Both the position numbers and the translations under genes were made by a program. Positions 1,156-41,572 of a stretch of DNA of 64,000 nt are shown here, piece by piece. This stretch comes from Akkermansiaceae bacterium (lineage in GTDB: Bacteria; Verrucomicrobiota; Verrucomicrobiia; Verrucomicrobiales; Akkermansiaceae): assembly GCA_905182475.1 (NCBI GenBank), contig CAJJBR010000002.1, positions 1 to 64,000 of the forward strand. The letters are read 5' to 3'. Below the pieces are notes generated by a model. It was not told where the DNA came from. It ran no database searches and saw only the letters and a program-made list of their open reading frames with translations. Positions within the stretch are counted from its first letter, which is position 1. Every line of letters starts with the position of its first letter.

Positions 1156-2995
1156 ATGGATATCCAGACCCTCTTCCTCCAAGCCTTCATTTACCTTTGC
1201 GCCGCACTCGTCGCCATCCTTCTGGGGAAACGGCTCGGGGTGGGCGCGGTGCTGGGCTATCTTCTCGTCGGTATCCTGATCGGACCCTGGGGTCTCGGGC
1301 TGATCGGTGAACAGAACCAAGACGTGATGCACTTCGCGGAGTTCGGGGTGGTGATGATGCTGTTTCTGATCGGCCTCGAGCTGCAGCCTTCGATGCTGTG
1401 GAGCATGCGCCGCAAAATCCTCGGACTCGGCGGCCTGCAAGTTGTGTTGCACCGCGATGGCAATCGGCGGAGTGGCGATGGTTCTTGGCCTCGCATGGCA
1501 GCCCGCGCTGGCGGTGGGGCTGATCCTTTCACTTTCTAGCACGGCGATCATTCTCCAGACACTCACCGAGCGCGGCCTGATGCGGACGGAGGCAGGGAAA
1601 GGCTCTTTCGCCGTCCTACTTTTCCAGGACATCGCGGTGATTCCCATCATCGCGGCACTGCCCTTGCTGGCGATCTATCCGGAAATCCACAACGACGGGA
1701 ACCATGGCAGCGTTGGAGAAATCCTAGCCCATCTCCCCCGCTGGGCGCATGGTTTGAGTACGCTCGGAGCCGTGCTGGCAGTCGTTTTCCTCACCCGCTG
1801 GTTATCGCGCCCGGTGTTCCGCATGATCGCCGCGACCCGCCAACGCGAGGCGTTCACAGCGACCGCACTGGTTCTTGTAATCGGTGTGGCTATCCTCATG
1901 AATATGGTCGGGCTGTCGCCGGCACTTGGCGCCTTCGTCGCCGGGGTGGTGCTGGCGAGCAGCGAATACCGCCACGAGTTGGAGAGCGATCTCGCGCCTT
2001 TCAAAGGCCTGTTGCTGGGCATCTTTTTTATCGGCGTGGGGATGGGGATCGACTTCGGGCACGTCGGAGAAAACGTATTTTCGGTACTCGGCCTGACGGT
2101 GGGGCTACTGGTGCTGAAAGGTGGGGTGCTTCTGGTGCTTGCACATTTCAACGGACTGAAAAAGGACTCGTCCTTTCTCTTCGCTTGTTCGATGGCGGCA
2201 GGCGGCGAGTTTGCTTTCGTGCTGCTAGGGATCGCGCTCCCGAGCGGAGTCCTGACTCTCGAAACAGGACGCACACTCACGGCAGTTGTTGCCATTTCCA
2301 TGGCGCTGACCCCGGTGCTGATCATCGTCAGCCAGAGGATCGCATGCCGCAAAGACGAGAAATCCGAAAGCTCGCGAGAGGCCGATGTGGAGGACGAGGA
2401 ATCGCCCGTGATCATCTGTGGCTTCGGGCGCTACGGCCACACGGTCGGCAGGTTACTGCGCACCCAGGGGATAGCCTGCACCGTTCTAGACCGGGATGAA
2501 GACCAGATCGACCTCCTCCGCTCCATCGGCGTCCCGGTCTTTTACGGCGATGCCTCACGCCCCGACCTGCTGGCGGCTGCGGGCGCGGCAAAAGCGAAGA
2601 TTCTCGTGGTTGCGTTGAAAGACGGGGATGTCGTTTCACACATCGTCCACACCGTTCGCCACAGCTTCCCGCACCTGAAGCTCTACCTCCGCGCCCACAG
2701 CCGCCTAGAGGCCTACGAATTCCTCGATCTTGGAGAGGAAAACATCTACCGGGAGACGCTCGATTCATCGCTGGTGATGGGTGTAGATATCATGTCAGAT
2801 CTGGGGATCACCCGGGACAAGGCGGAAAAAATCGCCTGCCATTACCGCAAGAACGACGAGCGTATCGTCCGCGAGATGGCGAAGCATCGCCATGATCGCA
2901 AAGAATACATCAGCCGGGCAAAGGATTATACTCAGACCCTAGACGAACTGATGCGCCGCGATCTCGACGAGGACGCTACGCAAAAAGATCCGTGA
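1156..2995 (+). pseudogene. Kef-type K+/H+ antiporter with RCK domain, frameshifted
   Basis: Two overlapping frames together make one monovalent cation:proton antiporter-2 protein. The first (from ATG 1156, [14 protein letters not shown]) gives the first membrane segments up to LGLGGLQVV near 1445. The second continues with CTAMAIGG and carries the remaining segments plus a TrkA-N/RCK domain with the NAD-binding motif GFGRYG near 2425-2442. Removing one base around 1436-1450 restores a 612-residue protein of normal length for KefB/KefC-like systems, which export K+ in exchange for H+ under nucleotide and thiol control. The 3' end overlaps the convergent DUF1501 gene by 20 bases. The shift could be real, a sequencing error or recoding; sequence identity elsewhere looks intact. 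Confidence 0.8.
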
Positions 2996-4433
2996 TGACC
3001 TTCGCCGGTTCGACTCCGGTTAATCTCTGGTCGAGACCTTGGAACTTGAAGTTGAGGCGCTCGTGGTCAATGCCGAGGGAGTGGAGAATCGTTGCATGGA
3101 GATCGCGGATATGGACCGGGTTTTCCGTAATGTTGTAGCTCATCTCGTCGGTCTCGCCGTAGACCTGGCCACCCTTGATCCCGCCGCCCGCCATCCAGAT
3201 GCTGAAGCAGCGCGGGTGGTGGTCGCGGCCGTAGTTCGTTTCCGTGAGTTTTCCCTGCGAATATACTGTCCGGCCAAATTCGCCGCCGAAAACGACGAGC
3301 GTGTCCTCGAGCATGCCACGCTGCTTGAGATCCTGGATGAGACCATAGCAACCTTGGTCGATGTCCTTGCACTGGGATGCGAGGTCGCGCGGCAGATTGC
3401 CGTGCTGATCCCAGCCACGATGGAAGATCTGGACAAAGCGAACGCCCCTTTCGAGAAGACGGCGCGCCATGATCGCGGAGTTCGCGAAGGTGCCACGCGT
3501 CTTGCTGTCCTCGCCGTACATCGCGTAGGTGTGCTCCTGCTCGCCGGAGAGATCCGTCAGCTCCGGCACCGAGGACTGCATCCGGTAGGCCATCTCATAC
3601 TGCTGCATACGCGTCACGATCTCCGGATCGCCGACCGCCTCATAGGATTTCATGTTCAGCTTGGAAAGCCCATCGAGCATGCTGCGGCGCATCTCACGCG
3701 GGACACCGGCGCTATCCTCAAGGAAAAGAACCGGATCGCCTTTCGAGCGAAGGTCGACGCCTGCGTATTTCCCGGGCAAGTAGCCGGAGCCCCAAAGCCG
3801 TGAGGAAATCGCCTGCACGTTCGAGTAGGGAGAACTGTGGGTCGCGTGGAGCACGACGAACGAGGGAAGATCCTGGTTCATCGAGCCGAGCCCATAGGAC
3901 AGCCAGGAACCCATCGAGGCCTTGCCGTTGACCATCGAGCCGGTGCAGACGAGCTGGTTGGCGGGCTCGTGGTTGATCGCATCGGTGTGCATCGACTTGA
4001 TCACGCAAATATCGTCCGCCATTTTGCCGTGCCACGGCAGCGCTTCGCTGATCCACGTTCCGGATTTTCCGTGCTGGGAGAACTTGAAGCGCGAGGGCGC
4101 GAGCGGAAATGCCGCCTGCTTGGAGGTCATCCCGGTGAGGCGCTCGCCTTCCTTGGCAAGGTAGTCTTTCAGATCTTCCTTGAAGCGCTTCTCAAGCTCC
4201 GGCTTGTAATCGAACGTATCCAGTTGGGATGGGGCGCCGATTGGCGAAATGTAGATCGCGCGCTTCGCCTTCGGGGCGAACTGCGGGATGCTCATGTTGC
4301 CCATCGGTTGTGCTGCGGCAAAGCCCTTTTCGCCGACCAGCGATGCCATCGCGGCCATTCCGAGCCCAGTGCCCGATTTCCGGAAAAACTGACGCCTTGT
4401 TAGGGCACTGTTGTAAGCTTCTAGAGGATTCAT
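2976..4433 (-). CDS. DUF1501 domain protein with Tat-type signal
   Basis: 485 residues. The N-terminus has a twin-arginine pattern (TRRQFFRKSG, residues 12-21) and a hydrophobic stretch GLGMAAMASLVG, suggesting folded export. The rest matches the DUF1501 family of the alkaline phosphatase/sulfatase-like fold, with segments such as GEFGRT, DHHPRCFSIWMAGGG and DLHATILHSLGID. In Planctomycetes and Verrucomicrobia these genes are paired with a cytochrome c/DUF1549/DUF1553 gene, and that partner lies only 5 bases upstream on the same strand. The biochemical function of the pair is not established; extracytoplasmic polysaccharide or sulfate-ester metabolism has been proposed from genome context. 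Confidence 0.88.
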   Translation of the reverse strand: MNPLEAYNSALTRRQFFRKSGTGLGMAAMASLVGEKGFAAAQPMGNMSIPQFAPKAKRAIYISPIGAPSQLDTFDYKPELEKRFKEDLKDYLAKEGERLTGMTSKQAAFPLAPSRFKFSQHGKSGTWISEALPWHGKMADDICVIKSMHTDAINHEPANQLVCTGSMVNGKASMGSWLSYGLGSMNQDLPSFVVLHATHSSPYSNVQAISSRLWGSGYLPGKYAGVDLRSKGDPVLFLEDSAGVPREMRRSMLDGLSKLNMKSYEAVGDPEIVTRMQQYEMAYRMQSSVPELTDLSGEQEHTYAMYGEDSKTRGTFANSAIMARRLLERGVRFVQIFHRGWDQHGNLPRDLASQCKDIDQGCYGLIQDLKQRGMLEDTLVVFGGEFGRTVYSQGKLTETNYGRDHHPRCFSIWMAGGGIKGGQVYGETDEMSYNITENPVHIRDLHATILHSLGIDHERLNFKFQGLDQRLTGVEPAKVITDLFA

Positions 4434-4438
4434 AACGG

Positions 4439-7400
4439 TTATCTGGTGATTGTTTCGTCGAGGTTAAACAGCTGTCCGGCAACCAAGGCCCAAGCGGCCA
4501 GTTCCACGGCCGGAGCCTCTTCGTCTGGCTTCAACTCGCCGACGGCGATCGCCTTGCGAGCCTGTTCAGGTTTCTCCGTGTAGTGCGCGATCGCCTCGTC
4601 GAAGGTGGTCTTCACATAGGATCTTTCATCTTCATCCAATTTGCGTCCGAGGAGTCTGAGCGTGATCAGATCCAGCCGCGCGTCAAAGCCCTCGGCTTCC
4701 TTGACCGCCTTGGTGGCGAGCACCCGGGTCGCCTCAACGAACTGCGGATCGTTCATCATCGCTAACGCCTGTAAAGGGGTGTTGGTCGTTTCCCTACCAA
4801 CACAAAATGTCTCCCTTGTCGGAGCGTTGAGAATCTCCATCGTCGGCGGTGCGGCGGTGCGTTTCCAGAAAGTGTAGAGGGATCTCCGGTAGAGCGAATC
4901 GCCGGTGTCACGCTTGTAGTTCTTGGTGTTCGACTGCCGCATGGCGACCGCCTCCCAGATCCCTTCCGGCTGGTAGGGCTTCACCGGCGGGCCACCGACT
5001 TTTTCCGAAAGCAACCCGGCGCTTTCCAGGGCGAGGTCTCGGATCTGCTCCGCATCGAGGCGCGTCCTCGACCCACGCGAAATCAGGCGGTTGCCGGGAT
5101 CCTTCTCAAGCTTCTCTGGAGAAATTATACCTGCCTGCCGGTAAGCGGCGGAGGTGACGATCGTCTTGGCCATGTGGCGGTAGTCCCAGCCGCTGGCGAT
5201 GAATTCCGAGGCCAGCCAATCGAGGAGTTTGGGATGAGTCGGGCGTGCGCCCATAATCCCAAAGTCGCCGTTGGTCTCGACGATGCCGGTGCCGAACATG
5301 TACGACCACAAGCGGTTCATGGTGACTCTCGCAGGCAGCGGATTTTTCGGATCGTTGAGCCACTGCGCGAGGCCGTTCCTGTCCTTCGGTGCACCCTCCG
5401 GCATGGCCGGGAGCATGGCCGGGGTATCCGGGAAAACCTTGTCGCCCTTGGAGGTGTAGGCACCGCGGATCAGGACGTGAGCGAAGGGCTCGCTGTCCTT
5501 TTTCTCCTCATACACCAAGGTCATCGAGCCACGGTCGCGCAACGCCTTCTCCTCGGCCTTCATCTTGGCGAGCTCTTTGAACAAAGCTACCCCAGGCTGG
5601 TCGACTGTTGTGATGAAATGCTCGAACAGTGCCTTGTTTTGCTCAGCGGTGCGCTTGGCTTTCGGAATGGCCGCCCAGTGCTCGATCATCTGCTGGTTTG
5701 CTAGGTGGGCAATCTCCCCGTGGCTGAGGACTCGGCGGTAGAAACGGAAATCCTGAAGAGCCACTTTCCCACTCACCTTCGAGTCACCTCCACCCCGCGA
5801 TCCAAGTATCAGGGGGGATGTCGTCTCGATGCTGGCGCCGACCGAGTTCGGAACGGGCAATGTGCCCGCGGGCTTGCCATCGACATATACCACCATCGCC
5901 TGGTCGGAGGTTTTCGTGCCATCAAACACCACCATTACGTGTTGCCACTTGCCTGGTTCCAGCCTCTCGGGGACGATCAGTTTGTTAGCTGACTTGTCCC
6001 AGGAATCGATGATGTGAGCTCCGGGCTTGCCCTTATCCAACCAGATGTCCCAGCCACGGTAGCGGTTCGACACATCCATTTTTGAGATCACTGCGCCTGT
6101 CGAATTCTTCGTATACCAGATGAATCCGCCATAACTGACCTGATCCTCGCGTGAAAAATTACCGACGTCACCGAGAACGATCTCGCTGCCGGAAACGACC
6201 ACCGCCTTGCCGAGAGGGCCGTCGATACGCTCCGGGGAAACCGGCCATTCGCGAGTCTCCCCGTCGATGGTACCGGTGAGATTGCCTTTCGCTGCGACCA
6301 AGGGTAGATGAACCGAAAGCGTGGGATCGGACTCTTTGGGAGCGGAGTCCGAATAACCTGCCAGCCACTTCTCGTAATCTCCCTGCGCCGCGATTTTCCT
6401 CTCGGCGATGCGCTTATCAACTCCAGCTATCTTTTCCTGAATGGCAACCAAAGCGTCCCGGTCCTCCGGAAGAGCTGCAAAGATCGACGGTGGGTGATTC
6501 GCGTTGTTCCGATCCAGCGCGCTCATCGTGTTGTTCCGGAAAAACGCGGTAAGCTGGTAGAATTCCTTGGTGGAAAACGGATCGAACTTGTGATCATGGC
6601 AGGAAGCGCAGCTCGCCGTCAGGCCGAGCCAAATCGCGCCCATGGTGTCCACCCGATCGGTCGCATAGATGGCATCGTATTCCTCGGGAATCGCCCCGCC
6701 CTCGCCGGTGGTCGCTAGGCAGCGGAGGAAACCGGTGGCCACTTTCTGGTCAAGCGTCGGCTCGGGCAGCAGATCGCCGGCGATTTGCTCGGTGGTGAAT
6801 TTGTCCCACGGCATGTTCTCACTGAAAGCGCTGATCACCCAATCGCGATACGGCCAGATCGCGCGGTAGTTGTCGATATGGATGCCGTGGGTATCCGCAT
6901 AGCGGACCGCATCAAGCCAATACCGGGCGAAGTGCTCCGCGTTGGCTGTCGTCGAGAGCATCTTGTCCGCCTCCGCGGAAACCGCCGCGTCCGCGTCCTT
7001 TTCGTATGCTGCCACGAAAGCATCGGTATCCGCAGGCTCCGGCGGCAGGCCAGTCAGGTCGAAGGACAATTTGCGGTGGAATCTCCTCGTATCCTCCGAC
7101 GGGTTCGGCTTGAGGCCGGCTTCCGCAAGCTTCTCGAAAACGAAGCCGTCGATCGGCTTGTCCGACCAATCGTTGGCAAGAGGGCTTGCCTTCACAACGG
7201 GCTCGTAGGACCAATGACCCTCATACTCCGCACCCTGGGCTATCCATCTCTCCAGCAGGGCGATTTCGCGCGCACCCATCGTTTTATGGCTCTCCGGCGG
7301 TGGCATCACCTCGTCCTTGTCAGCGGAGCGAATCAGTTCCATCAGCACGGATTCCTCCGGCTTGCCCTTCACGATCACCGGAGCGCCGAAATCGCGAACC

Positions 7401-7657
7401 TTGAAGGTATCCTCCTCGATATCGAGCCTCAGCGGCTCCTTTTCAGGCTCCCTCGCCTCCGCATCCGGGCCGTGGCATTGGTAGCAGTATTCGGAGAGGA
7501 TGGGCTGAATGTGCTCATTGAAAGAAACCTCCTTCGGCAGAACCATCGTTTTTCCCGCAGGAGCTTCCTCAGCAAGAAACTCAAACACGATCGGGTCTTT
7601 ACCACACCCGGAAAGCATTGCGCAGAGCGGTAGTATTTGAAAAAAACGATATTTCAT
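4439..7657 (-). CDS. Planctomycete-type cytochrome c / DUF1549 / LamG / DUF1553 lipoprotein
   Basis: About 1072 residues. It starts with a lipoprotein signal (lipobox LSGC) and then a single class I haem site YCYQCHGPDA about 60 residues in. DUF1549 follows, with a second CxxCH in SCASCHDHKFDP near residue 355. A LamG/concanavalin-like insert lies around residues 450-660 (SYGGFIWYTKNSTGAV, FRFYRRVLSHGEIAHL). DUF1553 ends the protein (RVTMNRLWSYMFGTG, TPLQALAMMNDPQFVE). An alternative ATG lies 3 codons upstream at 7666. It is the first gene of a two-gene operon with the DUF1501 protein. The product is probably an outer-membrane or periplasm-facing redox lipoprotein; its substrate is unknown. 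Confidence 0.88.
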   Translation of the reverse strand: MKYRFFQILPLCAMLSGCGKDPIVFEFLAEEAPAGKTMVLPKEVSFNEHIQPILSEYCYQCHGPDAEAREPEKEPLRLDIEEDTFKVRDFGAPVIVKGKPEESVLMELIRSADKDEVMPPPESHKTMGAREIALLERWIAQGAEYEGHWSYEPVVKASPLANDWSDKPIDGFVFEKLAEAGLKPNPSEDTRRFHRKLSFDLTGLPPEPADTDAFVAAYEKDADAAVSAEADKMLSTTANAEHFARYWLDAVRYADTHGIHIDNYRAIWPYRDWVISAFSENMPWDKFTTEQIAGDLLPEPTLDQKVATGFLRCLATTGEGGAIPEEYDAIYATDRVDTMGAIWLGLTASCASCHDHKFDPFSTKEFYQLTAFFRNNTMSALDRNNANHPPSIFAALPEDRDALVAIQEKIAGVDKRIAERKIAAQGDYEKWLAGYSDSAPKESDPTLSVHLPLVAAKGNLTGTIDGETREWPVSPERIDGPLGKAVVVSGSEIVLGDVGNFSREDQVSYGGFIWYTKNSTGAVISKMDVSNRYRGWDIWLDKGKPGAHIIDSWDKSANKLIVPERLEPGKWQHVMVVFDGTKTSDQAMVVYVDGKPAGTLPVPNSVGASIETTSPLILGSRGGGDSKVSGKVALQDFRFYRRVLSHGEIAHLANQQMIEHWAAIPKAKRTAEQNKALFEHFITTVDQPGVALFKELAKMKAEEKALRDRGSMTLVYEEKKDSEPFAHVLIRGAYTSKGDKVFPDTPAMLPAMPEGAPKDRNGLAQWLNDPKNPLPARVTMNRLWSYMFGTGIVETNGDFGIMGARPTHPKLLDWLASEFIASGWDYRHMAKTIVTSAAYRQAGIISPEKLEKDPGNRLISRGSRTRLDAEQIRDLALESAGLLSEKVGGPPVKPYQPEGIWEAVAMRQSNTKNYKRDTGDSLYRRSLYTFWKRTAAPPTMEILNAPTRETFCVGRETTNTPLQALAMMNDPQFVEATRVLATKAVKEAEGFDARLDLITLRLLGRKLDEDERSYVKTTFDEAIAHYTEKPEQARKAIAVGELKPDEEAPAVELAAWALVAGQLFNLDETITR

Positions 7658-7790
7658 AGGCAGCATGCAGGAGTGAAGGGATACTTAACAACCCCCTCGA
7701 ATCTATCAATTCAACATGCCGGTGATACACCCGAATTCAAGCTGAAATCCCCCAGAAGAAGAAGTGGTCAATCCCGGCAATTCTTCATTG

Positions 7791-29974: not shown

Positions 29975-31000
29975 ATGCTCGACTTCCTACCGAAAGACCG
30001 CCCTGCGCTCGTCCTTGCACCGATGCAGGACGTGACGGACCTGCCCTTTATGCGGGTGCTGGGGAGGCGTAGCATGCCCGATTGGTTTGTGACGGAATAC
30101 TTCCGCGTCCACCCGGACTCGCGGCTGAACAAATACATCCTGCGCTCCATCGAAGAGAACGAAACCGGTCACCCGATCTTCGCCCAAATGATAGGTCGGG
30201 ATATACCTAACCTCGTCCGCACCGCGATGGAACTCTCCAAATACCCCATCGCGGGAATCGATCTGAACCTCGGCTGCCCAGCTCCCGTCGTCTGCCGGAA
30301 AGATGCGGGCGGTGGGCTACTCAGATCCCCGGAGAAAATTTACGAAATCCTCGGTGCTCTACGCGATTCGATCCCCGGGCGTTTCACGGTAAAGACCCGC
30401 CTCGGCTACCATTCCCCGGAGGAATTCGCCGGCCTAATTGAGGTTTTCAAAAGTCACGCCATCGACGGCCTGACAATCCATGGCCGCACCGTGGAGGATC
30501 GCTACAAGACGCCGGTGCGGCCGGATTTCGTCAAACTCGCCGTAGAAGCGATGCCCTGCCCGGTCATCGCCAACGGCAATGTAGTCGATACCGCCACAGC
30601 TCTGGCCTTTCATTGGAAAACTTCCGCCGCCGGCCTGATGGTCGGGCGGGGTGCGATTCGGAACCCGTGGCTTTTCAGCCAGATTGAATCCGCATTTCTC
30701 GGCAAACCCATCTATGTCCCGACCCACCGGGATTTGTTAGATTACATCATGGAGCTCTCCGAAGAACTCGCCCGCGAACACCCGGATTTCAACCCGCTTC
30801 TCCACGTCCAGCGCATGAAAAAAACACTGATCTACATTTGCGATGGCATAGAATCCGCTTTTGAGCACTCGATCCGGCGGATGAAAACTCCGGAGGAATT
30901 CACTGAAATTTGCCGCCGGCACCTCGATCACAACGCTCCATTGCCTGTATTTCCCCCGTCGGAATCCCGCATATTTTGCGGTTTTACGGATTTACTATAA
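29975..31000 (+). CDS. dus: tRNA-dihydrouridine synthase
   Basis: 341 residues. The FMN-dependent TIM barrel begins LVLAPMQDVTDLPFMRVLGR. The key motif is GIDLNLGCPAPVVCRKDAGG, whose second Cys is the catalytic acid that protonates uridine during reduction. FTVKTRLGY and TIHGRTVEDRYK give phosphate- and FMN-binding residues, and VIANGNVVD and LMVGRGAIRNPWLFSQIE complete the barrel. The helical C-terminal domain binds tRNA. It reduces uridines in the D-loop of tRNA. Subfamily (DusB-like or other) cannot be decided by eye. Transcribed alone; the gap of 146 bases before the prepilin cassette suggests separate promoters. Confidence 0.93.
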   Translation: MLDFLPKDRPALVLAPMQDVTDLPFMRVLGRRSMPDWFVTEYFRVHPDSRLNKYILRSIEENETGHPIFAQMIGRDIPNLVRTAMELSKYPIAGIDLNLGCPAPVVCRKDAGGGLLRSPEKIYEILGALRDSIPGRFTVKTRLGYHSPEEFAGLIEVFKSHAIDGLTIHGRTVEDRYKTPVRPDFVKLAVEAMPCPVIANGNVVDTATALAFHWKTSAAGLMVGRGAIRNPWLFSQIESAFLGKPIYVPTHRDLLDYIMELSEELAREHPDFNPLLHVQRMKKTLIYICDGIESAFEHSIRRMKTPEEFTEICRRHLDHNAPLPVFPPSESRIFCGFTDLL

Positions 31001-31146: not shown

Positions 31147-31818
31147 ATGCAAGCCATACGTTACAAGCAAGCCACGCGTTACCGCGCCCGGGGGTTCAGC
31201 CTCATGGAGCTGCTTGTCGTGATGGGCATCATATCGCTTCTGCTTATCGCTGCTTTCCCCATTTTCATCAACAACTCGAACAGCGCCCGCAACGCATCGC
31301 GTGAGATTATCAAGGGCCACCTCCAACAGGCACGTGCCCACGCGATTGCCACTGGAAACGCGACTGCCTTGGCGATTCCCGTCCTTGGCTCCGGTCCCGA
31401 TCTGGGTGCCCGCGCCGTCTCGCTCGTCGAGGTCGAGAACTCCACCGGCGAATACGTCTCGATCAAGGACGAACAGGGGAAAGGCCGCCTTCTCCAACGT
31501 TTTGGAAAACTCTCCGGAAATTTCTATTTTCTATCCAGCTCACAAGTAAGCGCCGCGCAACCCACTGTTTTAGAAACGGGCGAAAACCTCCAAGTGAGTT
31601 TCAATGGCAGAGACTTTGATTGCCAAGCCATCATTTTCGCCCCCAACGGCCAGATCGTCCAACCGCCCTCCGGCACGCCCATCGCCATTGCCATCGGGCA
31701 AGCTACAAAACGAGGCTCAAGTCTCGAACTGACGGACAGAACAGGCGGCCAGCCCGGTTACGATCTTCTTCAAATAAACCGCCTCACCGGCAGAGCCCGC
31801 TTTTACCAGCCAGAATGA
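31147..31818 (+). CDS. Verru_Chthon cassette protein D (prepilin-like)
   Basis: 223 residues. The type IV/type II prepilin signal is RARGFSLMELLVVMGIISLL: cleavage after Gly, Phe at +1, Glu at +5 and a hydrophobic helix. The mature part has the long N-terminal helix and a variable C-terminal beta region with GFUT/GspH-like features (REIIKGHLQQARAHAIATGN). It is the first of four genes joined by 4-base ATGA/GTGA overlaps. The four-gene set is known in Verrucomicrobia as the Verru_Chthon cassette, often in several copies per genome; function is unproven, but the parts resemble minor pseudopilins of a type II secretion-like apparatus. Confidence 0.85.
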   Translation: MQAIRYKQATRYRARGFSLMELLVVMGIISLLLIAAFPIFINNSNSARNASREIIKGHLQQARAHAIATGNATALAIPVLGSGPDLGARAVSLVEVENSTGEYVSIKDEQGKGRLLQRFGKLSGNFYFLSSSQVSAAQPTVLETGENLQVSFNGRDFDCQAIIFAPNGQIVQPPSGTPIAIAIGQATKRGSSLELTDRTGGQPGYDLLQINRLTGRARFYQPE

Positions 31819-32387
31819 AAGCTCCCTCGAAAAAAGCGGGAAAATCCCGCGCCTGCATTACACTCAGTGGCCAGCCGGGAATGACCCTGATGGAGGTTGT
31901 GATCGCAATCGCTGTGGTCGCGTTTGTGGTTCCGCTGATTCTAGCGGCGACAGGCTCCGCCGGTAGTTCGCGGCGCAGTGCTGAGGCGGATACACGCTCG
32001 GCATGGATCGCGCGCCAAGTGCAACAGGAGCTCATCGTATCCTGGGGGGAGCATCCTGAAAAATCTGTCTTCGGGACAAGCCTTCCATTCCCGAAGTTTC
32101 CCGACGTGGCCGAGCCAGAGAAAACCCCGGAAATTCTGCTATTCGATTCCGATGGCGAATTCATCGCAAAAGGCAGCGGAGCCGATCTCGAGAGCGCCAG
32201 CCAAGTAAAGGACGCCACGTATATCGTCGCCGCATATTCAGAGGAATACAATCCGCCCAACCTCCCCGCCATCGCGAATTCCCTCTGCATCCTTCACATC
32301 CGCATTATCCACCCAGCAAAAGCAAACCCAGGCAACCGCAGCACCTTCCGCTACAACCTAATTACCACCAAGCAAGGAGCCCTGTGA
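31815..32387 (+). CDS. Verru_Chthon cassette protein B (prepilin-like)
   Basis: 190 residues from the ATG at 31815, which overlaps the stop of the previous gene (ATGA). The frame is open further upstream, but that part is inside the previous gene. The prepilin motif is QPGMTLMEVVIAIAVVAFVV: cleavage after Gly, Met at +1, Glu at +5. The rest resembles GspI/GspV-like minor pseudopilins: SAWIARQVQQELIVSWG, then a beta-rich end. The coupling suggests that the products are made in stoichiometric amounts and assemble together with D, C and A. Confidence 0.85.
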   Translation: MKAPSKKAGKSRACITLSGQPGMTLMEVVIAIAVVAFVVPLILAATGSAGSSRRSAEADTRSAWIARQVQQELIVSWGEHPEKSVFGTSLPFPKFPDVAEPEKTPEILLFDSDGEFIAKGSGADLESASQVKDATYIVAAYSEEYNPPNLPAIANSLCILHIRIIHPAKANPGNRSTFRYNLITTKQGAL

Positions 32388-33175
32388 AAGATCCACGCCA
32401 GATTTCTTCCATTCGGCGTTCAATATTGGAGGTTCGGTGTTCGATGTTCCCGAAGGCCAAAGCCTTCTCATTGATCGAGCTGCTCGTCGCCATGGCGATC
32501 ACCTCCATCATCATGGTTACGCTCTTCTCACTCCTCGGCCAATCAACCACCAACTACACCCAGACCCAGCGTGCGGTGAATGCTGTGTCCCAATCGCGCG
32601 CCTTCATCCAATTTTTCGATAGAGAGCTTTCCACCCGCCTCCCCGGCACCCCCCTGATCCATGAGAAGGAATCGACTGCTACAGGGCCGACATCTTCCGA
32701 CCGCATCGCCTTCGTCCGCGCCCTCACCCAAGACGAATTCGATGATGCCGATCCCGGTGATCTCAGCACCAGCGTCTATTACGTCGATTTCTCAGATGAT
32801 GGGAAAAGGGGCGAGTCTCCGAAACTTTTCCGCAAAAACCTTGGGCCGAAGGAAACGCAGAAACTCATCGAAGAAGGCGCCACGCCGCAGTTTCCGACCG
32901 TAAATGCGACCACTGACGAACCCATCATTCCCAACGTCATCTCCTTCAAGGCTGTTCCCATGTTCCGCGATATTACGGACGGCGAACTAAAGGAATGGGA
33001 CGACACCTCCCTGCAGCCACCCTCCGTCGTCGAGCTCAGCATCACCTTTATCGATGATTCATCGGCTCAGCGTTTCAAGATGAAATCCGAGTGGGATCGC
33101 CTTGCCACTTCCCCGCGTGACACCGAGCTGCAACTCATCCGCACGTTCACCCGCAACATCGCCATCGCGAAATGA
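32384..33175 (+). CDS. Verru_Chthon cassette protein C (prepilin-like)
   Basis: 263 residues from GTG 32384, overlapping the previous stop (GTGA). ATG 32444 (MFPKAKAFSLIELLVAMAIT) gives a shorter leader. The prepilin site is KAFSLIELL, with Ala instead of the usual Gly at -1. The GspJ-like body follows (QSRAFIQFFDRELSTRLPG, VVELSITFIDDSSAQRF). The segment between the GTG and the ATG is made of a short-period repeat (32410-32449), so the longer leader may have been gained by repeat insertion between genes B and C. The gene is coupled to protein A downstream by a further ATGA overlap. Confidence 0.83.
   Translation: MKDPRQISSIRRSILEVRCSMFPKAKAFSLIELLVAMAITSIIMVTLFSLLGQSTTNYTQTQRAVNAVSQSRAFIQFFDRELSTRLPGTPLIHEKESTATGPTSSDRIAFVRALTQDEFDDADPGDLSTSVYYVDFSDDGKRGESPKLFRKNLGPKETQKLIEEGATPQFPTVNATTDEPIIPNVISFKAVPMFRDITDGELKEWDDTSLQPPSVVELSITFIDDSSAQRFKMKSEWDRLATSPRDTELQLIRTFTRNIAIAK
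32410..32449. repeat. Short-period repeat at the start of cassette gene C
   Basis: Units related to ATTCGGNGTTC / ATATTGGAGGTTC / GGTGTTCGATGTTC occur in tandem. On the minus strand it would read NIEHRTSNIERR, a translated pattern typical of such dispersed repeats. If GTG 32384 is used, the repeat encodes part of the leader of protein C. Confidence 0.55.
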
Positions 33176-36039
33176 AATCCACCCCCCGTATCTCTCCAAA
33201 CCGTCTTGGCCTTGCGCTGCCGATGACCATTATCGCCGTTGCAGCACTCACCTTGCTGCTCGTCGGCCTCCTCACCGTCCTCACCCTTGAGCGCAAAACC
33301 GCACGCTCCTACTCCAACGCCGCACGCGCCAATCTCGCCGTAGAATCCGGCCTCGCAGTCACTATTGCACAAATTACGGACTTCTTAAACCGCCCAGATG
33401 TAACCGGAGCAGCGTTTGCAACTTGGGCCTACCATCCGGGTGGAGAAACTACCCCAGGATCCCTTCTTGCACTTACCGCCGGAAGGCCAGAGTTTGATGA
33501 CGGGACTACTGCAGGCAACCCTTTCCTAACAGCCGATAACACCCAGTGGTTGGGCACAAGTGGTGGAGCCCCGGACAACCTTTTGGCAGATTTCCAGGCA
33601 GGCAGCGAAGAGGTGTTCGATTTCAATGCGAATCACACACTAGGTGCAATGAATGGTGCTTGCCTTGCTCGTTGGCAGGATTTTGATACCGATTCCCAAG
33701 GTCGCAAAATGCGCTTCGCAGTTTGGGTCGATGACGAAAGTTCCCGCCTTGATGTCACACAGATTGGAACCCAAATTCGTGAGGACGGAAACAGCCCTGC
33801 TGAAGTTCCTTTCTTCGAAGTAGGGAAACTAGAGGATGATGATGCGGCAGATCAAGAATTCTGGCTCACTGGAGATTCGGCCAGGGTAACTTTGGGTAAC
33901 ACTCAATTCCCTAAGGAACTTTCGGGCGTAGCCACCTCGTTCAGCCGTGGCTATGATGTTCTCGCCTACACCCCTAGCTATGCCGATGCGGGTGCTTCGG
34001 AGGAAAATGGCTACCCGTTGCCCCTCAGGGGCCGTCTGAAACGGAATTTGAACTGGAGCGGCCATCTTACTTCAGGCTCCGTGGACGAACGTGTTGAACG
34101 GTTGACCGAATGGATGGCCAACGGGGCAGAAGGCTTTTTCAACAAACGGAATCTAAACTACTGGCCAGGAGGTAAAAGCACAGCAGAGCCCGATTACCAG
34201 ACTCTCTCATCAGTAAATCCCTTCGCCGCTGACCCGCGCAAAGAGCAATTTCGCACCATTTCCGCCTCGCTGATCGATTACCTTGACTCGGACAACGTCC
34301 CTACCCAGCCAGCCAGACTTGCCGACTTGGACTATGGGAACCCCATGCCAGGTGCCATTCCCGTGTTGCTAATGAGAGATGTGAAAACGCCAGAATTCTT
34401 TGGCGCAGACCGCACGGTCCGTATCAACGAAGTTCAAATCATTTGGAATTCCCAAGGAGCACCAGACGGTTTTGAAGCCAACAGCACCGTCAAACGAACC
34501 AGCCTCGAAGGTGGGCTTTATCGCTACGAAATCCCGGTTACCTACCGATTCGAATTGTGGAATATGGACGAAAATGAGATTTCCGCTGCTAGCTACGAGA
34601 TTCGTTCCACTTATATTCAGCAAATTCAAGGATCCGCCTTTGGCGCGATTGGTGCTCAGCCGATTCCGGAGGAAGCGGAGCTAGTTCTGCCCTTAAATTC
34701 CGGTAACCCCATAACCTTCGCGCCGAATCAGATCAAGGTCTTTGATATCACACGCACCTATGTGCGTGAGAGTAGCGAAGACCGGGGCACTACCTGGGAT
34801 AGTTTCAGATCAAGCGATAACAATAAACAACCGGACGGTCACCAGCGCCAAGCCCACGTTTTATTGAATGCCGGGACTGGCGAATGGCTTCACGCAACGG
34901 GTTATTTGCAAATGAGCGAAGCTCCTACGGACGGTGTCGTCTCAGTTGGCCCCGGAAACAAAGGTGGATCAAAAGGAAATCAACTCAACGACCCGCGGAT
35001 GACTCCATTGAGGATGTATGACAAAGATAGTGGGCTTCACTTTCACGAAGCGGATCGAGACTGGTCTGGCAACAAACCCGGCAAAATGAATTCTGTGAAC
35101 AACAGTCTCAACGGCTACAACTATCAGGACTTCAATTTCTGGTTGGACAGGCCGTATCTGCAATCGATAAACAGCCCCTTGCAAGGCATAACTCGTGTTG
35201 AAAATCGGCCGATGCGTTCACCAGCTGAGCTAGGGCGTATTTTTGATCCCTCATGGACTCATCCAGCCGGGCGAGGCAATGGAAATCAACCTTTCAGCCA
35301 AGGAGTTTTATCACCCTTTAGAGGAGGAGCCACACTGGCAATTGGGCAACGCTCGAAAGCCACCTTGAGCGGCACGGCAGAAGCTGATCACCTGGATGCC
35401 AAACCATGGAACATCATGGATATTTTTACCACAGAAGGGGATGGGAGCAGCGTGACCAGTGACGAGTTTGGCAGCCTAGAATGGCGGGGACGGGTCAATC
35501 TGAATAGTCAAAAAAGCCTCGCTCTGACTACCGGGATCAAGAGTAACCATGAGCTGATCATGGAGCTTCCCGAGCTCCGGCTGGGTGAAGCAACTCGCCC
35601 TACCGAATTTAAATTCAAAGCCGTCGCGGAAGAGTTAAAAAACCGCCTCACGAGGGGTGGGCAGCGACCGGATGGAAAATTGATCGCCACTTGGAAGGAT
35701 GCGCTTCCTTTGTATTCTCCAGGTCAACTCAGCGAGCTGGAGAGTTGGAACGAAATCTCTGCCTTCAATCCTCCCGAAAATAGTTTAAATAACGATCTCG
35801 AATTATTGAACCGTTCTGATTCTTCTCGTGAAGAGGCAATGATGCGAACGGCGAATCTTGTCACAACCCGCAGCCACTGTTACCGCATCGTAGCAGCAGG
35901 CGAAGTCCTCGAAGCCAGTGGGAAAGTTCTCGGCCACCGGATACTGGAAAAGGTCATATTCTTTAATTGCACTTGGGATTCAGATACCGGGGAGCTGGAA
36001 TCCGTAAAAGCTGAAACACTTTATGTCCGATCATTGTGA
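33172..36039 (+). CDS. Verru_Chthon cassette protein A (large, GspK/PilX-like N-terminus)
   Basis: 955 residues, starting inside the stop of gene C. The N-terminus has basic residues, then LGLALPMTIIAVAALTLLLV, a membrane helix resembling the GspK/PilX class, which lacks the +5 Glu of ordinary pilins. The large remainder contains segments such as SFSRGYDVLAYTPSYADAG and PMRSPAELGRIFDPSWTHP, together with KPWNIMDIFTTEGDG, characteristic of this family and without known enzymatic function. It ends YRIVAAGEVLEASGKVLGHR, a typical beta-strand tail. It could cap a pseudopilus the way GspK caps type II pseudopili. Codon use appears more AT-rich than in neighbouring core genes. Confidence 0.85.
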   Translation: MKSTPRISPNRLGLALPMTIIAVAALTLLLVGLLTVLTLERKTARSYSNAARANLAVESGLAVTIAQITDFLNRPDVTGAAFATWAYHPGGETTPGSLLALTAGRPEFDDGTTAGNPFLTADNTQWLGTSGGAPDNLLADFQAGSEEVFDFNANHTLGAMNGACLARWQDFDTDSQGRKMRFAVWVDDESSRLDVTQIGTQIREDGNSPAEVPFFEVGKLEDDDAADQEFWLTGDSARVTLGNTQFPKELSGVATSFSRGYDVLAYTPSYADAGASEENGYPLPLRGRLKRNLNWSGHLTSGSVDERVERLTEWMANGAEGFFNKRNLNYWPGGKSTAEPDYQTLSSVNPFAADPRKEQFRTISASLIDYLDSDNVPTQPARLADLDYGNPMPGAIPVLLMRDVKTPEFFGADRTVRINEVQIIWNSQGAPDGFEANSTVKRTSLEGGLYRYEIPVTYRFELWNMDENEISAASYEIRSTYIQQIQGSAFGAIGAQPIPEEAELVLPLNSGNPITFAPNQIKVFDITRTYVRESSEDRGTTWDSFRSSDNNKQPDGHQRQAHVLLNAGTGEWLHATGYLQMSEAPTDGVVSVGPGNKGGSKGNQLNDPRMTPLRMYDKDSGLHFHEADRDWSGNKPGKMNSVNNSLNGYNYQDFNFWLDRPYLQSINSPLQGITRVENRPMRSPAELGRIFDPSWTHPAGRGNGNQPFSQGVLSPFRGGATLAIGQRSKATLSGTAEADHLDAKPWNIMDIFTTEGDGSSVTSDEFGSLEWRGRVNLNSQKSLALTTGIKSNHELIMELPELRLGEATRPTEFKFKAVAEELKNRLTRGGQRPDGKLIATWKDALPLYSPGQLSELESWNEISAFNPPENSLNNDLELLNRSDSSREEAMMRTANLVTTRSHCYRIVAAGEVLEASGKVLGHRILEKVIFFNCTWDSDTGELESVKAETLYVRSL

Positions 36040-37411
36040 AAAAAACTTCCTCGCACTTTTACTGATTATTTTGATCGGTGCGCCCTCTCTTTCGGCTGCT
36101 TCTCTCAGATGGATACATTTGGGCACGATTGACGCCGGATTGGTAAGTTTGGCGATCGACGGGAAAATAGCCTACCGGAAAATGCCGCCCGGGAGAGCTA
36201 CACCCTGGGGAAATGTCTCACCAGGCCTTCATCATTTTCAGATCGCGTCAGAGAAAAACCTTGGCTCCGCCTTTGAGTTGGAAATCGCTAAAAACCAGAA
36301 GATCACCATGGTAAGCGTTTCGGATAAAAACGGCGACCTTCAATGTCGTACTTTTGGCTTGGACGCGCCCCAAGAAGAATTTTTTTTCCTCAATGTGATG
36401 CCCGGTGTCATGATGAGTTTGCCGGAAACCAAGCAGAAGGCCATTTTTGGAAAAGGCTTCTGGCTACATGATGATAAGGCAAAGACCACCGTCTCATTAG
36501 TCGATAGTGAAGGGTTTCACGGGAAAGTTGATTTTTCCCGTTTGGGCGATGCGGATACGCCAACAGGCTCCTACCTTGCCATTCTTTTTAGCGACGATGA
36601 TGGCAAGCCCAATCTCGCAATTCTTCGAGACCGCGATGCACTCTTTAAAATTAGCAATAAATCTATCGAAATTGCCGATGAATTAGTAGCGGGTATCAGA
36701 ATCATTTCCGAAGGGAATAAGCTAGCTGCGGGCAGCTTCGATCCAGCAGATACCAATTGGGAGAAAGTGCAGAGTCAAATTTTTTGGCTTAATCTGTCGA
36801 TTGACCGCGATCCATGCAGGTTGGAGATCAGAGGCTTCCCTGCTATGCGACGCATGCCTTCAGGGCGCGGCACGGGTTTTGTAAAATGGCCTGCGGGTGC
36901 TTGGAAAACAGATGTTGTGGTCGAGCGGACCAATGAGAAACTCGCTAGCGACAGTTTCTCGCTCTCCGCCAAGGCTAGTATAGGGCTGATCAGCTCTGGT
37001 GGCGGGAAATATCCTCATCGTTTACTCACCGTGGAAGGGCGGTCACGTGGAGAAAGTAGATCCGTCCAAAAGTCGCAACTTCGGTTCGTAAACGCCCTAC
37101 CCGATGGAGTCTTGAGATCTATCGTTCAATACGATACAGAGCCAGTCATAATCACATTGGATCCGGGAGAAATCGGGGATATGATTCCGCTCGTGAAAGG
37201 TAGCTTTCCTGGAGCAAAACTTGATCTAACTCTGGGTGCACAGAAAAATCACCAAATCTGGGAAATTCCCTTAATGCCTACTCTTCCGCCGGGAGATTGG
37301 GTGGTAGTTATACACCTCGATCAAGAATCATTTGCTGCACCCGTCCTCACTTGGGTGGAAATGGACAAAGGCGCAATCACATTTCCCGCCGCTCCGGGAG
37401 GTGACGAATAA
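36023..37411 (+). CDS. Exported protein, fifth gene of the prepilin cassette
   Basis: 462 residues starting 17 bases before the stop of protein A, so translation is probably coupled. The N-terminus ALLLIILIGAPSLSAAS is a signal peptide. Two related beta domains are visible: SLRWIHLGTIDAGLVSLAID near the start and QLRFVNALPDGVLRSIVQYD near residue 350, each followed by a segment built round a PG turn (SPGLHHFQI, PPGDWVVVIHL). The repeats resemble DUF4397-type beta sandwiches. No enzyme motif is visible. It may be the secreted passenger or surface part of the apparatus; that is inferred from position. Confidence 0.72.
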   Translation: MSDHCEKNFLALLLIILIGAPSLSAASLRWIHLGTIDAGLVSLAIDGKIAYRKMPPGRATPWGNVSPGLHHFQIASEKNLGSAFELEIAKNQKITMVSVSDKNGDLQCRTFGLDAPQEEFFFLNVMPGVMMSLPETKQKAIFGKGFWLHDDKAKTTVSLVDSEGFHGKVDFSRLGDADTPTGSYLAILFSDDDGKPNLAILRDRDALFKISNKSIEIADELVAGIRIISEGNKLAAGSFDPADTNWEKVQSQIFWLNLSIDRDPCRLEIRGFPAMRRMPSGRGTGFVKWPAGAWKTDVVVERTNEKLASDSFSLSAKASIGLISSGGGKYPHRLLTVEGRSRGESRSVQKSQLRFVNALPDGVLRSIVQYDTEPVIITLDPGEIGDMIPLVKGSFPGAKLDLTLGAQKNHQIWEIPLMPTLPPGDWVVVIHLDQESFAAPVLTWVEMDKGAITFPAAPGGDE

Positions 37412-37454: not shown

Positions 37455-38237
37455 TTATTGATAATGCACCCAGAAATCGCGTCCGTTTTCCTGAATCTGA
37501 GCCAGTATTCCTTCACCCTGTCCTTTCCCGAACTCCTCCGCAATCGCCCGCAAGTTCCCCGGATGATTGATTTCTTCGCCGAGTGGGAATTTCATGAACT
37601 CCTCCGGCGGTATCATCTCCGGAGCATCCGTTTCTAGGAGGATGCGGTTTGCCGGGAGCTGGCGGAAAACCTCCAAAACCTTGCGCTTCCGCTCCTGCAG
37701 GAAATATCCGGAAAAGGAAAAGTAGGCGCCTTTCTTGAGCAGCCTCTCCGCCACCTCGATAGAGCCGCCGAAGGAGTGCATCAGGAATTTTTCCGGCCAT
37801 TCCGGCATCTCGTCCATCACCGAGAAAAGCTCCTCCCAGGCCTTTAGGCAATGAACCGTCATCACGCGGCGCATCTCCGTAGCGATACTCACCTGTTTCA
37901 CAAAAACCTCGCGCTGCACTTCCATCACTGGCGTATCCACCCACCCGTCCACCCCGATTTCCCCGACAGTCGCTAGCGGATCCGCATCCAAAATTTCCCG
38001 CAAGCGCCCTTCCCAGCCTTCCTCCGCAGTGTCCGCAAACCACGGATGGATCCCATACGCCGGAAAAACAAAGCCCGCAAACTCCTGCGCCAGACCCGCC
38101 ACCGCTTCCCAGTCCGCCTCCTGAGTCGCATTCACCACGCAGCCGGAAATCCCTTCAAGTTTCATTTCCTCCACCAGCTCGCCAACCGGTTTCCCGAAGC
38201 GCCCGCTCTGTAGATGGTTGTGAGAATCGAAGAACAC
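37455..38237 (-). CDS. TatD-family metal-dependent hydrolase
   Basis: 260 residues of the amidohydrolase-fold TatD family. Metal ligands appear in order: FFDSHNHLQSG (two His), TVGEIGVDGW (Glu), MTVHCLKAW (His), LMHSFGGS (His) and LLETDAPEM (Asp). GYFLQERKRK and the late Asp are typical. TatD enzymes act as 3'-5' DNases or RNases in repair and RNA turnover, and some act as D-aminoacyl-tRNA hydrolases. It is divergent from secA, with 146 bases between them. SIEVAERLLKKGAYFSFSGY matches the usual family spacing. Confidence 0.88.
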   Translation of the reverse strand: MFFDSHNHLQSGRFGKPVGELVEEMKLEGISGCVVNATQEADWEAVAGLAQEFAGFVFPAYGIHPWFADTAEEGWEGRLREILDADPLATVGEIGVDGWVDTPVMEVQREVFVKQVSIATEMRRVMTVHCLKAWEELFSVMDEMPEWPEKFLMHSFGGSIEVAERLLKKGAYFSFSGYFLQERKRKVLEVFRQLPANRILLETDAPEMIPPEEFMKFPLGEEINHPGNLRAIAEEFGKGQGEGILAQIQENGRDFWVHYQ

Positions 38238-38383: not shown

Positions 38384-41300
38384 ATGATCAAGTGGATTCT
38401 CCAAAAAATCGTCGGCAGTAAGAACACGCGCGAACTGCGCCGCATCCGCCCGACCGTCGCCCGCATCAACGAAGCGGAGCAAGCGCTCCTGAACGAGCCG
38501 GAAGAAAAACTCCGCGAGCTCACCGTGAAATGGCAAAAACACCTCGCCCGCTACCACGATCTCAAGTCGCCGCCGAAGCCCATCGTCGAAAAAATGTCCG
38601 AGGAGGATCTTCGGACGACCGCCAGCGATCTTGAAGCCCGTTTCAAGGACATGCGCGACGAATTTCCGTCACTTCCCGCCAACATCAAGGCCACTCCGGA
38701 AGCCATCGAGGGTGCGAAGAACTCTTTCCACGAGATCGAAGGCGATTTCCAAAAAGCCCGTGCGAAATATCTGGAGCAGATCCTTCCCGAAGCCTACGCG
38801 GTCGTGAAAAACGGCGCGCGACGCATGTGCGGCACCGAAATCCAGGTCAGCGACCAAGCACTGCCATGGGAAATGATTCACTTCGACGTCCAGCTAGTCG
38901 GCGGCATCGCCCTGCACCGCGGGATGATTGCAGAGATGCAGACGGGTGAAGGTAAAACCCTCGTCGCGACCCTGCCCGTTTACCTCAACGCCCTGACCGG
39001 CCTCGGAGTTCACGTCATCACGGTCAACGACTACCTTGCGAAACGTGACTCAGATTGGATGGGATCACTCTTCCGTTACCTAGGTCTTACCGTCGGTTGT
39101 ATCCAGAACCAAATGGCTCCGTGGGATAGACGCGAGCAATACGCCAACGACATCACATACGGAACCAACGCGGAATTCGGCTTCGACTACCTCCGCGACA
39201 ATGGCATGGCATCTTCCAATGAAGACCAGGTTCAGCGCGGCCATTACATCGCCATCATCGATGAGGTTGACTCCATCCTTATCGACGAGGCGCGGACGCC
39301 CCTCATCATTTCCGGCCCCACCGCCCAATCCACACATCAGTTCGACAAATACAAGCCGCTGGTTGACCAACTCGTCAAAAAGCAGACCGGCCTTTGCAAC
39401 GACCTCGCCAACGAAGCCAAGAAACTCGCCGACGCCGGCGAAATCGACGAAGCCGGACGGTTGCTTTTCAAAATCAAACTCGGCCAGCCGCGCAACCGCA
39501 ACCTCATGCGCTTCATGGAGGAGCCGGAAAACCGCCGCCTAATCGAGAAAACCGAACTCTCCTTCTACCAAGACGCGCAGAAAAAGGAACTCTTCGCCCT
39601 CAAGGAAGAGCTCTTTTTCACCATCGATGAAAAAGGCAACGACGCGGATCTCATGGAAATGGGTCGCGAATTCCTTTCCCCTGGTGACCCGGAATCCTTC
39701 ACCCTCGAAGACCTCGGCTCCGTGTTTGCGGACATCGATGCGAACCTCGAGCTGAGCCCCGAGGAACGCGTTTCACTGAAAGAGGAAGCGCAGGATCGCA
39801 TGGGCGTGCAGGCGGAGAAAATCCATAACATTTCCCAACTCCTCAAAGCCTACTGCGTCTATGAAAAGGACGTCCAGTATGTGGTGAAAGACGCCAAGGT
39901 CATCATCGTCGATGACAACACTGGCCGTGAAATGCCAGGCCGCCGCTGGTCCGACGGACTCCACCAAGCCGTCGAAGCCAAGGAAGGTGTCGCCATCGAA
40001 AAGGAGACTCAGACCTTCGCCACGATCACCATCCAGAACTACTTCCGCCTCTACGAGAAACTCGCCGGCATGACGGGAACCGCTGAAACCGAAGCTGCGG
40101 AGTTTCACGATATCTACCGCCTCGACGTGCTCCCGATCCCGACCAACGCGCCGAATGTCCGCGTCGACGAGAACGACCAAGTTTTCAAGACACGCCGCGA
40201 AAAGTTCAACGCAGTCATCGCGAAAATCCAGGAAGCCCACGACAAAGGGCAACCCGTCCTCTGCGGAACCGCATCCGTGGAATCCTCCCAGACCCTCGCC
40301 CGCATGCTCCAGCGCGCGAAGATCCCTCACTCCGTCCTCAACGCGAAGTTCCACGAGCAGGAAGCGGAAATCGTTTCCTCTGCCGGTCAGCCGGGCTCAG
40401 TCACTGTTTCTACCAACATGGCAGGACGCGGAACCGACATCAAACTCGGCAAGGGTGTCGCCGAGGTTGGCGGACTTTTCGTAATCGGCACCGAGCGTTA
40501 CGAATCACGCCGTGTTGACCGCCAGCTCCGTGGCCGTTGTGCACGTCAGGGCGATCCCGGCCGTTCCCAGTTCTTCATCTCCTTCGAGGATGACCTCATG
40601 CGCAACTTCGCAGCAGCGGAAAAAATGACCGCGATGATGGAACGTTTCGGCATGAAAGACGGCGAAGCGCTCGAGCACTCATGGCTCAACCGCTCCGTGG
40701 AAACCGCACAGAAACGCGTCGAACAACGCAACTACACATGGCGGAAGCGCGTCCTAGACTTCGATGACGTGATGAACAAACAGCGCGAAGTTGTTTACGG
40801 CTACCGCAACGAAGTCCTCTCCACCGAGAGCCCTCGCGACCTCGTCATCGAGATCATCGAAGAAACCATCCCGACGAAAGTACACGAATACCTCGAAGAG
40901 CGCGATGAGAGCTCGCCTGACTACGCTGAGCTCCTCGGCTGGGTCAACGCGACCCTCCCGATCAGCGTTTCCAAAGAGGAGTTCGTCACCGGCCAGACTC
41001 CCGAACAGATCTCCAAATTCCTTGTCGACAAGGTCAAGGAAACCTACGAGCTCAAGGTCAAGGAACTGCCTTACGAAGTGCTCGACCAGGAAGAGCGCCG
41101 CATGGTTCTCGTTGCCATCGACAAGCAATGGATGGCACACCTTTATAACATGGACGCCCTCCGCGAAGGAGTCGGCCTCCGTGCCCAGGGTCAGAAAGAC
41201 CCGCTCATCGAGTACAAAAACGAAGCCTATAAACTCTTCGTTACCCTCATGGACGAGATCAAGCAAGAGGCTCTCACGAACCTCTTCCGCTCCGCTGCAA

Positions 41301-41572
41301 ACCTCAAGGATTTCCTCAAGCAGCTCCACAACCAGCCGCAACAACTTCAGGGCGGCGAGTCCAGCGACGGCATTACACGGGACAACATGGCCTCCAGCGG
41401 CAGCTTGGAAAACATCGACCCCGCACAGATTTCCAAACCCGGCGGCAGCGAGCTCAAGCTTAACTTACCAAAACGCAAGCCAAGCTTCTCCATCGAGACC
41501 ACCGGCCGCAACGCCCCCTGCCCATGCGGCTCCGGCAAAAAATACAAGCAGTGCTGCGGGAAAGAGGCGTAA
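38384..41572 (+). CDS. secA: Preprotein translocase ATPase SecA
   Basis: 1062 residues. Walker A MQTGEGKT and Walker B-type VDSIL with IIDEVDS lie in the first nucleotide-binding fold. VSTNMAGRGTDIKLG and the arginine-containing ESRRVDRQLRGRCARQGDPG belong to the second. A helical scaffold and wing domain follow. The C-terminus NAPCPCGSGKKYKQCCGKEA is the zinc-binding, SecB-contact tail. The protein is longer than the about 900 residues of E. coli SecA; inserts lie around residues 330-480, as in other members of the PVC group. It drives export through SecYEG, which fits the many signal peptides in the window. Confidence 0.97.
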   Translation: MIKWILQKIVGSKNTRELRRIRPTVARINEAEQALLNEPEEKLRELTVKWQKHLARYHDLKSPPKPIVEKMSEEDLRTTASDLEARFKDMRDEFPSLPANIKATPEAIEGAKNSFHEIEGDFQKARAKYLEQILPEAYAVVKNGARRMCGTEIQVSDQALPWEMIHFDVQLVGGIALHRGMIAEMQTGEGKTLVATLPVYLNALTGLGVHVITVNDYLAKRDSDWMGSLFRYLGLTVGCIQNQMAPWDRREQYANDITYGTNAEFGFDYLRDNGMASSNEDQVQRGHYIAIIDEVDSILIDEARTPLIISGPTAQSTHQFDKYKPLVDQLVKKQTGLCNDLANEAKKLADAGEIDEAGRLLFKIKLGQPRNRNLMRFMEEPENRRLIEKTELSFYQDAQKKELFALKEELFFTIDEKGNDADLMEMGREFLSPGDPESFTLEDLGSVFADIDANLELSPEERVSLKEEAQDRMGVQAEKIHNISQLLKAYCVYEKDVQYVVKDAKVIIVDDNTGREMPGRRWSDGLHQAVEAKEGVAIEKETQTFATITIQNYFRLYEKLAGMTGTAETEAAEFHDIYRLDVLPIPTNAPNVRVDENDQVFKTRREKFNAVIAKIQEAHDKGQPVLCGTASVESSQTLARMLQRAKIPHSVLNAKFHEQEAEIVSSAGQPGSVTVSTNMAGRGTDIKLGKGVAEVGGLFVIGTERYESRRVDRQLRGRCARQGDPGRSQFFISFEDDLMRNFAAAEKMTAMMERFGMKDGEALEHSWLNRSVETAQKRVEQRNYTWRKRVLDFDDVMNKQREVVYGYRNEVLSTESPRDLVIEIIEETIPTKVHEYLEERDESSPDYAELLGWVNATLPISVSKEEFVTGQTPEQISKFLVDKVKETYELKVKELPYEVLDQEERRMVLVAIDKQWMAHLYNMDALREGVGLRAQGQKDPLIEYKNEAYKLFVTLMDEIKQEALTNLFRSAANLKDFLKQLHNQPQQLQGGESSDGITRDNMASSGSLENIDPAQISKPGGSELKLNLPKRKPSFSIETTGRNAPCPCGSGKKYKQCCGKEA

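Follow-up and report, generated by a model that had tools for sequence, protein, structure and literature searches.

A prepilin cassette in an Akkermansiaceae genome, with a fixed fifth gene and an apparently exchanged head

The locus described here lies in a 64-kb window (the whole stretch of DNA analysed) of contig CAJJBR010000002.1 from an Akkermansiaceae bacterium. Five co-directional, overlapping genes, D, B, C, A and F5, span positions 31147-37411 of the forward strand (Table 1). The coordinates bear out the overlapping layout described in the first-pass annotation, in which F5 starts inside A, its ATG standing 17 nt before the end of that gene. The start of C is uncertain in this layout, because an in-frame ATG at 32444 lies 11 nt after a GGAGG (32428-32432) and because the sequence at 32400-32450 resembles a repeated GTTCGATGTTC-type element; with the ATG at 32444, the leader would be 7 residues long and the B/C overlap would vanish. 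Compared with a near relative, locus L121, none of the five genes is disrupted and all show purifying selection (dN/dS 0.16-0.27). At 2979-7666 of the window, a DUF1501 gene adjoins a planctomycete-cytochrome (PSCyt1, PSCyt2, PSD1) gene.

Table 1. Coordinates of the cassette genes, their subdivisions and the flanking genes in the window
Feature	Position	Strand	Description
D	31147..31818	+	GspH-like prepilin, RARG|FSLME; TIGR02532 match
B	31815..32387	+	GspI-like prepilin, GQPG|MTLME; ATGA overlap with D
C	32384..33175	+	Prepilin with Ala at -1, KAKA|FSLIE; GTGA overlap with B
A	33172..36039	+	GspK-like, 955 aa, RLG|LALPM, without Glu at +5; ATGA overlap with C
A residues 1-62	33172..33357	+	Membrane helix, native (secA-linked) type
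A ectodomain	33358..36036	+	Foreign type; junction near codons 61-66
F5	36023..37411	+	Exported DUF4397/transthyretin-like protein, duplicated unit; signal-peptide-like start
F5 unit 1	36092..36688	+	About residues 24-222; profile match to single-unit F5 family, E 7e-9
F5 unit 2	36716..37408	+	About residues 232-462; E 1.7e-5 to single-unit family, 8.7e-8 to unit 1
tRNA-dihydrouridine synthase-like (dus) gene	29975..31000	+	Syntenic upstream flank; same order in L121; name given by likeness judged by eye
TatD-like hydrolase	37455..38237	-	Syntenic downstream flank; same neighbourhood in G004, G017 and L121
secA	38384..41572	+	Syntenic downstream flank

The first three proteins carry class III prepilin sites and the fourth, A, lacks a glutamate at +5, a combination found in the minor pseudopilins of type II secretion systems (T2SS) and read correctly in the earlier annotation. 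The alanine at -1 can be ruled out as a special mark, with 23 of 46 D proteins having alanine at this position. In profile searches, the D family matched GspH in 23 of 25 members (best 2.2e-8) and the Verru_Chthon cassette model TIGR02596 in 23 of 25; the B family matched the XpsI model in 22, GspI in 13 and TIGR02598 in 5 of its 25 members; and the C family matched TIGR02599 in all 25, GspI in 21 and GspJ in 16. For the window proteins themselves, the hits were to general prepilin models and, at weak scores, to the four Verru_Chthon cassette models of NCBI (D, B, C and A). Taken with structure comparison, these profiles support the proposed likeness to GspH-I-J-K, with D resembling GspH, B resembling GspI and A resembling GspK, the assignment of C being less specific. 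A D-B-C-like prepilin trio, with neither an A nor an F5 gene, is also found on contig 98 of the same genome (L093, 7249-9729).

Profile matches indicate that A is a homolog of GspK. The GspK model is found in 15 of 17 family members at E values up to 0.1 (best 2.3e-8), and TIGR02600 in 7 of 17; the window protein itself scores 11.1 bits against the NCBIfam GspK equivalog, below its 130-bit cut-off. In a direct profile comparison with the GspK encoded by the same genome, A matches weakly and over the first 60 residues only, and a weak PilX_N match was found in the cassette by Pfam. The structure of window A was modelled from 42 alignment rows at low confidence (pLDDT 54, pTM 0.65). A Foldseek search of this model against solved structures gave no match at E < 0.001, and only a second aligner placed GspK first: structural realignment ranked four GspK chains at the top (3ci0_K, Z 9.3 with 232 residues aligned; 6utu_C, 8.6; 9a1f_T, 8.3; 5vtm_X, 7.6), followed by an unrelated chain at Z 6.9. 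The rmsd of the GspK alignments is high, at 14-18, so we treat these matches as support rather than proof. In the same low-confidence model, residues of about 412-583 resemble a β-sandwich inserted into the GspK plan. Sequence searches of the A and F5 families against solved chains returned nothing useful. Single or tandem A-like genes of 1200-1360 aa occur without prepilins in loci L115, L118, L119 and L120, often beside exported genes of about 240-290 aa, and genes of this kind are present in several copies per genome in relatives.

F5 showed matches to DUF4397 and PEGA-like models, and no PilY1 domain was detected. Against DUF4397 (PF14344), the window protein scores 26.2 bits (E 1.3e-5), under the gathering cut-off of 30.6 bits; among single-unit F5 members, 11 of 35 match at 0.1. 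Window F5 is twice the length of these single-unit proteins, and its halves match both the single-unit family and each other, which identifies it as an internal tandem duplication. A single-unit relative, from locus L132, was modelled from 35 rows with a pLDDT of 91.6 and has two β-domains. Among solved structures, it lies closest to the PepT2 ectodomain (Z 14.8 over 167 residues) and to the two AlgF domains (Z 8.5-8.9). A likeness between AlgF and PepT2 is also noted in the AlgF paper, in which AlgF is proposed to mediate protein-protein contacts (PMC10641220). From this model of a family member, F5 is predicted to be a tandem transthyretin-like protein of the AlgF/PepT2 type. Its earlier description as a double β-domain protein was right about the domains and incomplete about their number, as profile comparison gives two copies of a two-β-domain unit.

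A genome scan yielded 58 loci, mostly from Verrucomicrobiales with some from Chthoniobacterales. The D-B-C-A order is kept in nearly all of them, and this conservation, together with intact genes under purifying selection, marks the cassette as more than a chance arrangement. An F5-family gene lies directly downstream of A in 38 of the 56 loci with sequence beyond A (37, plus L136). In the 37, the F5 ATG stands at -17 relative to the end of A in 30, at -11 in four, at -4 in two and at +5 in one; starts outside the window are approximate, as the ORF caller misplaces them in GC-rich relatives. Across a phylum sample of 288 genomes, full-length A occurs in 11 (the window's included), each with D-B-C upstream and an F5-family gene directly after. 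Strong F5 matches, found in eight genomes of this sample, all lie at the end of A and nowhere else, and two of the eight have tandem F5 genes.

The first-pass annotation had envisaged a cassette that plugs different passengers into its fifth position and had proposed a survey of fifth genes; that survey rules out swapped fifth genes. F5 belongs to one conserved family, and its place directly after A in all 11 genomes, with strong matches nowhere else, makes the fifth gene a fixed partner. F5 is nevertheless not strictly required: none follows A in the related loci L122, L130, L133, L139 and L143, which form a sublineage, nor in some distant loci, and in G404, a small genome, a locus (L196, 5164-8955) with an A head of the window's type has B and C with neither D nor F5 detected. 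The pairwise distances of the five cassette proteins are correlated; for A and F5 the correlation between matrices is 0.92, against at most 0.48 in permutations. As distances among D, B and C also correlate, at 0.88-0.95, the A-F5 correlation alone indicates co-inheritance, not contact. Two F5-family genes stand in tandem after A in loci L181 and L182, a possible forerunner of the fused double F5. In about twenty sampled genomes of genus g13, which belongs to the window's family, A is matched only weakly and F5 is absent, so the cassette looks lost there.

Comparison with related loci revealed that the cassette is a mosaic. The order dus-D-B-C-A-F5-tatD-secA is syntenic with L121 (genome G511), with DNA identities of 76-82% except in D-B-C, where identity is 64% or there is no match. 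Over residues 21-60, window A is 79-85% identical to native secA-linked cassettes and 30-60% identical to G032, a genome of another family. Beyond residue 62, identity to the natives falls to 10-20% in most segments, whereas identity to G032 is 29-57% by segment; identities among native A proteins over the same segments lie mostly at 40-80%. The foreign head type occurs in four of 387 genomes of the order, namely the window's, G511, G032 and G404, and the duplicated F5 was found only in the window, L121 and G032.

Phylogenetic analysis separated the two parts of the cassette. In a tree of D, B, C and A residues 1-75, the window and L121 fell within the secA-linked group (99/100) and L121 was next to G004 (100/99), while a tree of A residues 76-955 grouped the window and L121 with G032 (100/100). 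In approximately unbiased (AU) tests, the base data rejected a grouping of the window, L121 and G032 (p 0.0004), and the head data rejected one that joined the window and L121 to the natives (p 0.00015); because these groups were defined with the identity profile already in view, both p values are somewhat optimistic. Sequence identity and tree placement assign D-B-C and A residues 1-62 to the genus's secA-linked clade and the A ectodomain to the type of G032, with which the doubled F5 is also shared. The A head and F5 were apparently acquired together from another lineage, in place of the native ones. We infer that recombination, rather than another cause, produced the mosaic. Fast divergence of the ectodomain within the window lineage could in principle give a similar picture, as both trees contain long branches, whose attraction under the model affects the tests as well. 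We consider this improbable: the switch is sharp, at codons 61-66, the head resembles that of another family's genome more closely than those of the same genus, and the doubled F5 is common to the window and G032. The D-B-C block also differs between the window and L121, so either exchange or fast divergence has affected this block as well.

No ATPase or secretin of the relevant kind was found among those window ORFs that were scanned by Pfam, in line with the earlier reading, and parts of a secretion machine occur elsewhere in the genome. Contig 21 encodes two GspE/PilB-like ATPases, GspF and a GspG-like pilin; contig 40 encodes GspG, GspH, a prepilin, GspK and a GspD-like secretin; and further genes lie on contigs 139 (a third ATPase), 3 (two PilT-like genes) and 65 (a prepilin peptidase). 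In contrast to T2SS minor pseudopilins, the cassette does not lie in an operon with gspC-M. A further possibility is that it merely duplicates the canonical GspHIJK of contig 40, as an ordinary and redundant set of T2SS minor pseudopilins. This would account for the shared order and homology; it is an unlikely explanation for an A protein of 955 aa, three times as long as the 310 aa of the genome's own GspK, with a dedicated partner gene of a family not seen beside the canonical set.

We somewhat favor a model in which D-B-C-A form a tip complex like that of GspHIJK, or of FimU-PilV-PilW-PilX, with F5 binding A. In this model, the complex of D, B, C and A would prime a pseudopilus or pilus and sit at its tip, and genes elsewhere in the genome would supply the motor, major subunit and secretin. 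F5 would cross the inner membrane on its own signal peptide, bind the large A ectodomain and be carried at the tip or released from it. The closest functional precedent is found in Myxococcus xanthus, where three clusters of four minor pilins plus PilY1 serve one machine and the PilX lacking Glu5 has been placed next to PilY1 (PMC7541494).

By the same precedent, the cassette could encode the minor pilins of a type IVa pilus, and F5 could be an adhesin standing in for PilY1. The layout of four minor pilins and a fifth non-pilin is the same, and the pair of PilT-like ATPases on contig 3, the PilB-like ATPases and the weak PilX_N match point in this direction. We hold this reading to be possible yet doubtful, since the match of A to GspK is far stronger than that to PilX, no PilY1 domain was detected in F5 and the genome also has GspG/H/K and the GspD-like secretin. 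F5 might instead be a periplasmic assembly factor or adaptor that helps to fold or hold A and is retained in the cell, neither cargo nor part of the tip. Such a role would suit a small protein coupled to A, given that AlgF, among its nearest solved folds, mediates interactions in the periplasm. We regard it as rather unlikely, in that the size of the A ectodomain and the analogy with PilY1 favor exposure; the evidence otherwise fits this and the tip-partner model alike.

Returning to the tip-complex model, the joint exchange of ectodomain and F5 suggests that the two work as a pair. The idea of interchangeable passengers thus survives in a restricted form, in which an A ectodomain and its F5 are replaced together on a native base. 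We tentatively speculate that the cassette could be a modular delivery tip: a pilin base of D, B, C and the A helix might take exchangeable heads, each an A ectodomain with its cognate F5, with recombination in the conserved stalk of A as the route, and a shared machine would thereby acquire a different surface or cargo specificity all at once. As the partner is fixed to a single GspK-like protein and exactly the ectodomain and partner appear to have been replaced together, one would expect contact and specificity to reside in the pairing of the A ectodomain with F5 rather than in D, B or C, and this cassette offers a direct test of how cargo is selected by minor pseudopilins.

Features of several known systems recur in the cassette. 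With AlgF, DUF4397 proteins and the PepT2 ectodomain, F5 shares a tandem pair of transthyretin-like β-sandwiches; it differs in lying outside an alginate locus, in its fixed association with a pilin cassette and in its duplication in the window. T2SS GspH-I-J-K is alike in gene order, prepilin sites and the lack of Glu5 in K, and GspK chains rank first for the low-confidence A model, but the window cassette lies outside a gsp operon, its A has an extra ectodomain including the β-sandwich, and a fifth partner gene is present. FimU-PilV-PilW-PilX plus PilY1 clusters likewise combine four minor pilins with an exported non-pilin, several such clusters serving one machine in M. xanthus; here, the fourth protein is GspK-like and the fifth is DUF4397/transthyretin-like rather than PilY1. 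Another named relative is the four-gene Verru_Chthon prepilin cassette A-D of Verrucomicrobia (TIGR02600, TIGR02598, TIGR02599 and TIGR02596), whose D and C models match the like-named window proteins and whose four models all find matches across the family, mostly weak. The window proteins score far under the curated cut-offs of these models (TIGR02596, 23.3 of 70 bits; TIGR02598, 12.5 of 51.4; TIGR02599, 28.5 of 256.5; TIGR02600, 28 of 332.3), A matches only the first 75 of 1296 positions of TIGR02600, and F5 is not included in the models. In the one strong Verru_Chthon member inspected (genome G027, locus L070, 6618-16218), A comes first, followed by the prepilins, with PEP-CTERM-like proteins on the flanks, whereas the window order is D-B-C-A.

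Because the cassette departs from each in a defining feature that was tested, we do not class it as a Verru_Chthon cassette, a T2SS GspHIJK set or a PilY1 cluster. The suggestion that it is an undescribed system needs qualifying, as NCBI models for the related Verru_Chthon cassettes already exist; our literature search, which took in only a minority of subscription journals, found no paper naming these models or the minor pseudopilins of the phylum. What is new here is the mosaic, in which a base of native type carries an A ectodomain of foreign type together with a doubled F5.
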